Of a stretch of 64,000 nt of DNA, positions 55,219 to 55,508 are shown in pieces. The first letter of the stretch is position 1. Every line of letters begins with the position of its first letter. The DNA is from Puniceicoccaceae bacterium 5H (GTDB lineage: Bacteria; Verrucomicrobiota; Verrucomicrobiia; Opitutales; Oceanipulchritudinaceae), in contig WOUP01000008.1 in assembly GCA_009772895.1 (NCBI GenBank), positions 1 through 64,000 on the forward strand. Reading direction: 5' to 3'. The translations under genes were made by a program, and so were the position numbers. The notes under the pieces are model-generated. The model saw only the letters and a program-made list of their open reading frames with translations, made no database searches and was not told the DNA's origin.

Positions 55219-55241
55219 CATCCGCTTTTGCTCATCCGCTC

Positions 55242-55271
55242 AATACCGCCTCCCTCTTGGGACGCGGTATT
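55242..55271 (+). terminator. Terminator after the yecH-like gene
   Basis: AATACCGC/GCGGTATT stem with a 14-base loop, then TTTTTA. It stops read-through into nifH. Confidence 0.8.
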
Positions 55272-55307
55272 TTTTATACCCCTACGCCCGCACGGCAGAT
55301 TTTTGCG

Positions 55308-55325
55308 TCCTACCAAAACGTAGGA
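55308..55325. promoter_or_regulatory. Dyad upstream of nifH
   Basis: TCCTAC and GTAGGA form an inverted repeat with a 6-base spacer, about 130 bases before the -24 element. That is the usual distance for an activator site, but it does not match TGT-N10-ACA. Confidence 0.35.
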
Positions 55326-55388
55326 TCCGTTCCGACATCCGACGGAGATGTAGTTTTTACCGTCACCTTCCAGCTACCAAAACCGGCC

Positions 55389-55445
55389 TTAACTGATTCA
55401 TCAGTATCACAAAAACACATATCATACTATAATTCAATCAGTTAA
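55389..55445. repeat. Inverted repeat upstream of nifH
   Basis: TTAACTGATT at 55389-55398 and AATCAGTTAA at 55436-55445 are perfect inverted 10-mers. The first lies partly within a small palindrome ACTGATTCATCAGT at 55392-55405. They end 7 bases before the -24 element and may be regulator sites. Confidence 0.5.
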
Positions 55446-55451
55446 GATTAC

Positions 55452-55467
55452 TGGCACATTCACAGCT
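55452..55467 (+). promoter_or_regulatory. Sigma-54 promoter of nifH (-24/-12)
   Basis: TGGCACATTCACAGCT: GG and GC are 10 bases apart, as in the consensus TGGCAC-N5-TTGC. The predicted transcript start is near 55478, giving a leader of about 30 bases before the nifH ATG. Confidence 0.75.
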
Positions 55468-55508
55468 TTAACCATGGCATCACTCTTAATCTTAAAAAGA
55501 GCAAAAAC

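Follow-up and report, generated by a model that had tools for sequence, protein, structure and literature searches.

Probable activation of a molybdenum-nitrogenase operon by an AnfA-like NifA with its own operator of CTAC-N6-GTAG type

The window, a 64-kb stretch of DNA from a member of the Verrucomicrobiota, carries a nif locus in which a nifA-like gene (53163..54815; 550 amino acids, TTG start as listed), the frame of a yecH-like small metal-binding protein (54901..55218; 63.3 bits against TIGR03853, cut-off 65.7) and nifH (55509..56363; 447.5 bits against TIGR01287, cut-off 394.35) follow one another in the same orientation on the forward strand. Frames for nifD, nifK, nifE, nifN and nifB lie after nifH on the same strand (56415..63738, the start of nifK being uncertain) and are presumed to form a single operon with it. 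The nifD (659 bits), nifK (441 bits), nifE (626.7 bits) and nifB (358.5 bits) frames all score above their NCBIfam cut-offs, with nifN (319.1 bits) just below its own of 326.8; nifD and nifK are of the molybdenum type. Ahead of nifH, also on the forward strand, an inverted repeat runs into T residues (55242..55271, arms 55242-55254 and 55259-55271); this would be a terminator-like end to a nifA-yecH unit, and a simple terminator scan did not flag it. Glycerol genes occupy the region immediately 5' of nifA (49055-53035), namely an aquaglyceroporin-like frame (211.8 bits, cut-off 400), glpK above its cut-off and a glpD-like frame (305.4 bits, cut-off 360), and a ferritin-like frame is found 3' of nifB (63790-64000; PF00210, 58.4 bits).

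The product of the nifA-like gene has the domain order GAF (59-200), sigma-54 activator AAA+ (234-400) and Fis-type HTH_8 (502-540) in Pfam. With GAFTGA in the translation and matches to PF00158 (252.7 bits) and PF02954 (30.5 bits), it classifies as a sigma-54 activator, or bacterial enhancer-binding protein, and an rpoN gene is found in the genome. Its score against the NifA family model TIGR01817 (504.4 bits) falls under the cut-off of 528.85, which is passed in none of the 22 nifH-bearing genomes of its order versus 17/29 named genomes. The canonical NifA of Klebsiella, rhizobia and Rahnella and the window NifA are alike in domain order and in their role as activator at a sigma-54 nifH promoter, the latter role being predicted for the window protein, and differ in TIGR01817 score, in helix-turn-helix class and in operator.

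A −24/−12 element had been reported just before nifH in a sequence-only reading of this DNA, and it is indeed present on the forward strand at 55452-55467 (TGGCACATTCACAGCT), with GG-N10-GC spacing. The −12 half is imperfect, the whole showing two mismatches to TGGCAC-N5-TTGCW. Matches to this pattern with two mismatches allowed number 22 in the window versus 32.6 expected by chance, so the motif by itself is no proof of a promoter, and support for it comes from its position relative to the dyad described below. TGGCAY lies 104-178 bp beyond that dyad in all 22 nifH loci of the order, and for 19 loci, against 0.37 expected, the distance from the distal site is 140-165 bp. The spacing from the −12 half predicts a nifH transcription start near 55478.

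The same reading had seen no TGT-N10-ACA in the 230 bases upstream, and had named a site further up, or inside the yecH-like gene, as the finding that would count against it. We sought both in the window; there is no TGT-N10-ACA in the 11 kb upstream of nifH, including the yecH-like gene, and the only two in the 64 kb are at 33081 and 44149. TGT-N10-ACA is given as the established NifA consensus in a study of AnfA (PMC7294313), and 26 of 80 named relatives have it ahead of nifH, which would favour a NifA that uses a degenerate or distant copy of this site and leaves the dyads described below irrelevant. Against this, the order carries the site at chance frequency (2/22 loci, 1.9 expected), the rest of the phylum has it at none of 19 nifH loci, and the window NifA lacks the GWVQ-like helix, which 15 of the 16 TGT-type genomes show among the NifA proteins read. 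(The exception, L077, has TTACA-N4-TGTAA twice, 30 bp apart, in its nifH region.) We therefore reject the canonical site as the nifH operator, absent as it is for 11 kb and at chance level in the order, and consider even a degenerate or distant form of it very improbable.

Two candidate dyads had been offered in its place by the sequence-only reading, and they fared differently. One, given as TTAACTGATT/AATCAGTTAA just before the −24 half, is real: it belongs to a long inverted repeat, CTTAACTGATT / AATCAGTTAAG (55388..55446), with perfect 11-nt arms at 55388-55398 and 55436-55446 that were equalled in 1/500 dinucleotide shuffles. These arms, together with the nearness of the promoter, would recommend it as the NifA operator. 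It is, however, specific to its own genome among the 22; the best match to an arm in the 21 relatives is 9/11 bases, no relative reaches 9 for both arms, and all of them retain CTAC dyads. We accordingly rejected it as a conserved site and regard a role as NifA operator as the least probable of the readings weighed here. Between its arms lies a sigma-70-like match whose TATAAT is perfect (55406-55433; one found, 0.4 expected); this match is at chance level and would better suit a local operator, so that the repeat might be the operator of a local second promoter. A palindrome, ACTGAT-TC-ATCAGT, also falls within it.

The other candidate, a TCCTAC/GTAGGA dyad about 130 bases up, stood. It lies at 55308..55325 (TCCTAC-CAAAAC-GTAGGA), and we treat it as a candidate distal activator site, UAS1. 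A search for nifH in 372 genomes of the order, its own included, found 22 at E up to 1e-140, and comparison of the dyads upstream of nifH in these relatives, the check that the earlier reading had proposed, showed CTAC-N6-GTAG at enhancer distance upstream of nifH in 22/22. Over the roughly 3.8 kb scanned at each locus the motif is confined to the upstream DNA, with 27 copies in 8,800 bp of upstream DNA and 0 in the remaining 74,860 bp. When every spaced 4+4 dyad was scanned without bias, CTAC-N6-GTAG came first at 22/22, followed by shifted versions of itself; block-wise shuffles reached at most 5 when dyads were palindromic (30 shuffles) and at most 6 when dyads of any kind were counted (5 shuffles). 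The consensus over the 27 copies is TCCTAC-ATTTAY-GTAGGAT, and the outer C and the outer G are each kept in 24.

A second copy, usually weaker than the first, follows the distal site by 30-31 bp in the loci of the order. Among the offsets tried, +30 from the first site gave the best mean agreement with the consensus (5.82 of 12 positions), followed by +23 (5.05) and +31 (4.27), the mean over offsets being 3.01 with a standard deviation of 0.50; at least 6/12 matches occur at +30 or +31 in 19/22 loci, the exceptions being L022, L023 and L029. In the window this candidate proximal site, UAS2, which the earlier reading did not include, begins 30 bp downstream of UAS1 at 55338..55355 (TCCGAC-GGAGAT-GTAGTT, TCCGACGGAGATGTAGTT) and is degenerate, keeping 9/12 consensus positions. 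A shorter sequence, CTACCAAAAC, is present twice, at 55310-55319 within the distal site and at 55374-55383, 64 bp apart. The 10-base pattern is not specific alone, since it is found somewhere in 162/344 genomes of the order, and since the single CCTAC-N6-GTAGG of its own 4.1-Mb assembly (UAS1) compares with 4 for a reversed control.

We mapped the nif clusters of 20 of the 21 relatives (G084 was omitted); nifA is on the mapped stretch in 17 of the 20, and in 13 nifA and nifH diverge with the site between them. This arrangement argues against the alternative that the conserved dyads are bound by some other regulator, whether a repressor or a second sigma-54 activator, and that NifA acts elsewhere or not on nifH. 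The single exact site in its own genome would also fit a dedicated regulator, yet is within chance. On the other side, 13 further places in the genome match the NifA query, mostly across its AAA+ domain, and dyad copies occur away from promoters in G036, G145, G101 and G352. In G145 and G036, of one genus, they are downstream of the nifA stop (L230:12726-12801 and L224:7300-7315), in G145 about 20 and 80 bp past it and in G036 about 230 bp. Beyond the copies in G145 the nearest TGGCAY found is at about 240 bp, and there is none in the stretch scanned in G036. G352 has a copy inside nifE. Of the five exact copies in G101, four are near nif genes, one each in front of nifH, a flavodoxin gene and an unnamed frame, and one within nifE. 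Weighing this with the evidence from the protein below, we think another regulator unlikely, though clearly less so than the two readings dismissed above.

The window NifA itself departs from the textbook protein in its DNA-binding domain. In an AlphaFold model of the helix-turn-helix (a fragment starting at residue 484; mean pLDDT 88.5), read together with an alignment (A1), the third helix, positions 47-56 of the fragment, is the predicted recognition helix, corresponding to residues 530-539 and to codons at 54750..54779 on the forward strand. The domain lacks the GWVQ...RQ-type helix-turn-helix of the NGR234 and Rahnella NifA and reads ER-x-x-GLR, and a [TS]ER-x-x-G-[LI]-R motif is present in 22/22 NifA of the order. 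The E, R, G and R of the helix are invariant in the 23 proteins of A1, whose members from outside the order were picked for the pattern. Fis/NtrC-type domains were the best matches in a fold search with the model, and no match had an E below 0.001. The N-terminus carries three cysteines, C13-x4-C18-x19-C38, and the exact C-x4-C-x19-C is found in 14/22 NifA of the order versus 0/22 GWVQ-type proteins; C-x4-C before the GAF domain is absent from the two AnfA proteins compared.

Recognition helix and site tend to occur together beyond the order. A search of 387 genomes in the phylum gave nifH in 26 (E up to 1e-130), of which 19 lie outside the order, and all 36 NifA-like matches of these 19 (E up to 1e-120) were read. 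The exact site occurs in L252, L253, L255 and L256, with a one-mismatch version, read by eye, in L249, and these same five genomes are the only ones of the 19 with a [TS]ER-x-x-G-[LI]-R NifA. The exact site is therefore present in 4/5 genomes with a GLR-type NifA versus 0/14 without (Fisher p 0.0013), or 4/5 versus 0/6 counted by family (p 0.015), p values that are descriptive only because the genomes are related and the GLR pattern was defined once the sequences were already known. Some loci overlap between our sets: L256 and L257 resemble the named loci L084 and L083, and L031 duplicates L020. A CTAC site universal in the phylum was rejected, as 14/19 genomes outside the order have neither the exact site nor a GLR-type NifA.

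Among the 80 named nifH loci, 15 have CTAC-N6-GTAG, 26 have TGT-N10-ACA and two have both. The NifA search covered 29 of the 39 named genomes with either site (13/15 with CTAC, 16/24 others), one or two NifA-like proteins being read for each. A GLR/GIR-type NifA was found in 8 of the 13 CTAC-site genomes (L032, L034, L035, L075, L094, L095, L099 and L110), which belong to Verrucomicrobiota, Bacteroidota (four loci) and Spirochaetes (one locus). The other 5, all Desulfobacterota (L057, L059, L064, L070 and L091), have no GLR-type among the proteins read; L057, L059, L064 and L070 have a GWVQ-type NifA plus a third type. These five speak for another regulator of the dyads, and on their account, among the proteins read, we rejected a strict rule that the CTAC site needs a GLR helix. 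Many of the GWVQ-like NifA read GWVQARAARELGLTQRQ(I/M)GYR, with the NGR234 and Rahnella NifA in a related form. In a check of 23 loci, a looser TAC-N6-GTA, often TACA-N4-TGTA, was seen in the 400 bp before nifH in several Bacteroidota and Desulfobacterota loci that have no exact CTAC-N6-GTAG (L104, L048, L058, L077, L082, L096, L107 and L108).

The site and its surroundings closely recall a known system of alternative nitrogenase control. According to the published account (PMC7294313), AnfA of Rhodobacter capsulatus binds a pair of TAC-N6-GTA dyads, full expression requiring both, with the TAC half less conserved than the GTA half, and the anfA-anfH intergenic region runs in the order anfA terminator, two repeats, RpoN site. 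The AnfA consensus, TACCAAAACGTA in the window, is contained within 55308-55325, upstream of the sigma-54 promoter. The R. capsulatus locus, as described there, and the window are alike in the TAC-N6-GTA core, in two dyads before a sigma-54 element, the TAC half being the less conserved, in an upstream activator gene with a terminator, in the GAF-AAA+-HTH architecture and perhaps in a cysteine motif near the N-terminus. They differ in that the window operator is longer, TCCTAC-N6-GTAGGA, and in target: R. capsulatus AnfA controls the Fe-only nitrogenase (PMC7294313), whereas the target here is nifHDKENB. Across 344 genomes of the order no anfG scores above its cut-off, and two sub-threshold matches were rejected as a sign of an alternative nitrogenase, both having internal stops; the window NifA is therefore not AnfA by function, although as a NifA it seems to operate in the manner of AnfA. 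Two AnfA stretches (Desulfobulbus and Desulfovibrionaceae), meant as a positive control, contain no exact TAC-N6-GTA.

Two further systems offer partial parallels. The Azotobacter vinelandii VnfA operator, GT(T/A)C-N6-GTAC (PMC9542535), shares with the window dyads the N6 spacer and the pairing of motifs, mostly two per target at a similar spacing; it differs in the outer base (GTAC versus CTAC/GTAG here), and VnfA, unlike the window NifA, controls the vanadium nitrogenase and other genes. DVUA0143 of Desulfovibrio vulgaris is described (PMC4641369) as a predicted nif regulator with an N-terminal domain similar to AnfA/VnfA, in a study that also predicts a motif for Desulfovibrionales. D. vulgaris DP4 resembles the window in having a CTAC-type CTACAAAAATGTAG upstream of nifH, 111 bp before −24, and differs in the GWIQ-type helix of a NifA-like protein of the same plasmid, a putative DVUA0143 counterpart; this protein, the one read, is one of two plasmid matches.

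Protein comparison gives only a tentative placing with AnfA. Over 529 amino acids the window NifA shares 44% identity with a protein beside anfHDGK in Desulfobulbus elongatus, its 40.7% identity to Rahnella NifA being little below this. In midpoint-rooted trees of the GAF-AAA+ part, from which the helix-turn-helix was excluded, the order NifA form a clade with Bacteroidota, a Spirochaete and two AnfA proteins, with support of 96/89 in a 65-row tree and 94/88 in a 57-row tree. GWVQ-type proteins group together, and weakly with NGR234 and Rahnella (89/76 and 72/96, respectively). The 65-row tree omits L200, L214 and L221; the 57-row tree includes 12/22 order NifA, 6 GWVQ-type, 4 other Desulfobacterota, 7 further named and two AnfA proteins, and omits 10 rows of family f49 from the 36 phylum proteins. 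As the GLR-type NifA are one clade with the two AnfA, the site-helix association rests on few independent events, and it could have come about through joint transfer of nif clusters.

The earlier suggestion of a NifA with another recognition sequence is supported by the dyad in 22/22 loci, by the chance-level TGT-N10-ACA and by a different helix that tracks the site across families of the phylum. That tracking, and the published consensus of the NifA relative AnfA (PMC7294313) contained within the site, weigh against another regulator. We consider it highly probable, as judged from comparative sequence evidence, that an AnfA-like NifA activates the molybdenum-nitrogenase operon via its own operator. 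The nifH operon would be switched on by sigma-54 RNA polymerase together with the product of the upstream nifA-like gene, which would bind the strong dyad at 55308-55325 and the weak one at 55338-55355. These dyads are spaced by 30 bp, roughly three turns of the helix, and have their centres approximately 160 and 130 bp upstream of the predicted start. Bound NifA would then contact polymerase at the −24/−12 element through looping, and the C-x4-C-x19-C cysteines may sense redox. The best reading of the window NifA is as a putative class apart from the textbook protein, marked by ER-x-x-GLR, C-x4-C-x19-C and a TAC-N6-GTA core in its operator.

A wider scheme would have two NifA classes for molybdenum nitrogenase, one pairing GWVQ with TGT-N10-ACA and the other, AnfA-like and often with N-terminal cysteines, pairing ER-x-x-GLR with TCCTAC-N6-GTAGGA or close variants in Verrucomicrobiota, Bacteroidota and Spirochaetes, with AnfA perhaps a branch of the second class turned over to the Fe-only nitrogenase; on this we are close to evenly divided, leaning marginally against. 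Our search of the literature, which left most subscription journals outside, found no paper on CTAC-N6-GTAG. NifA regulons are commonly sought with TGT-N10-ACA, and such searches would miss nif promoters in these phyla. An alternative operator with its matching helix would allow regulon prediction in unculturable diazotrophs, might provide engineered nif clusters with an orthogonal pair of activator and promoter, and is relevant to the question of a common activator ancestor for control of the molybdenum and iron-only nitrogenases.

Two minor observations concern other genomes. In G101, the copy at L212:11094-11109 is about 140 bp before the flavodoxin gene (PF00258, 97.5 bits), which is a candidate nifF under the same control. 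In family f49 of the same phylum the CTAC dyad is absent, and GGAA-N6-TTCC dyads, possibly a third operator class, are found upstream of nifH in 6/7 genomes. With positions counted from the Met codon closest to the P-loop (in the window this is 55539, 30 bases past the ATG of nifH), L262, L263, L264, L266 and L267 have two copies, at about −326 and −214 and 112 bp apart, and L254 has one at −301; the NifA helices of this family are of TERMVRYK and TQRIINYR type.
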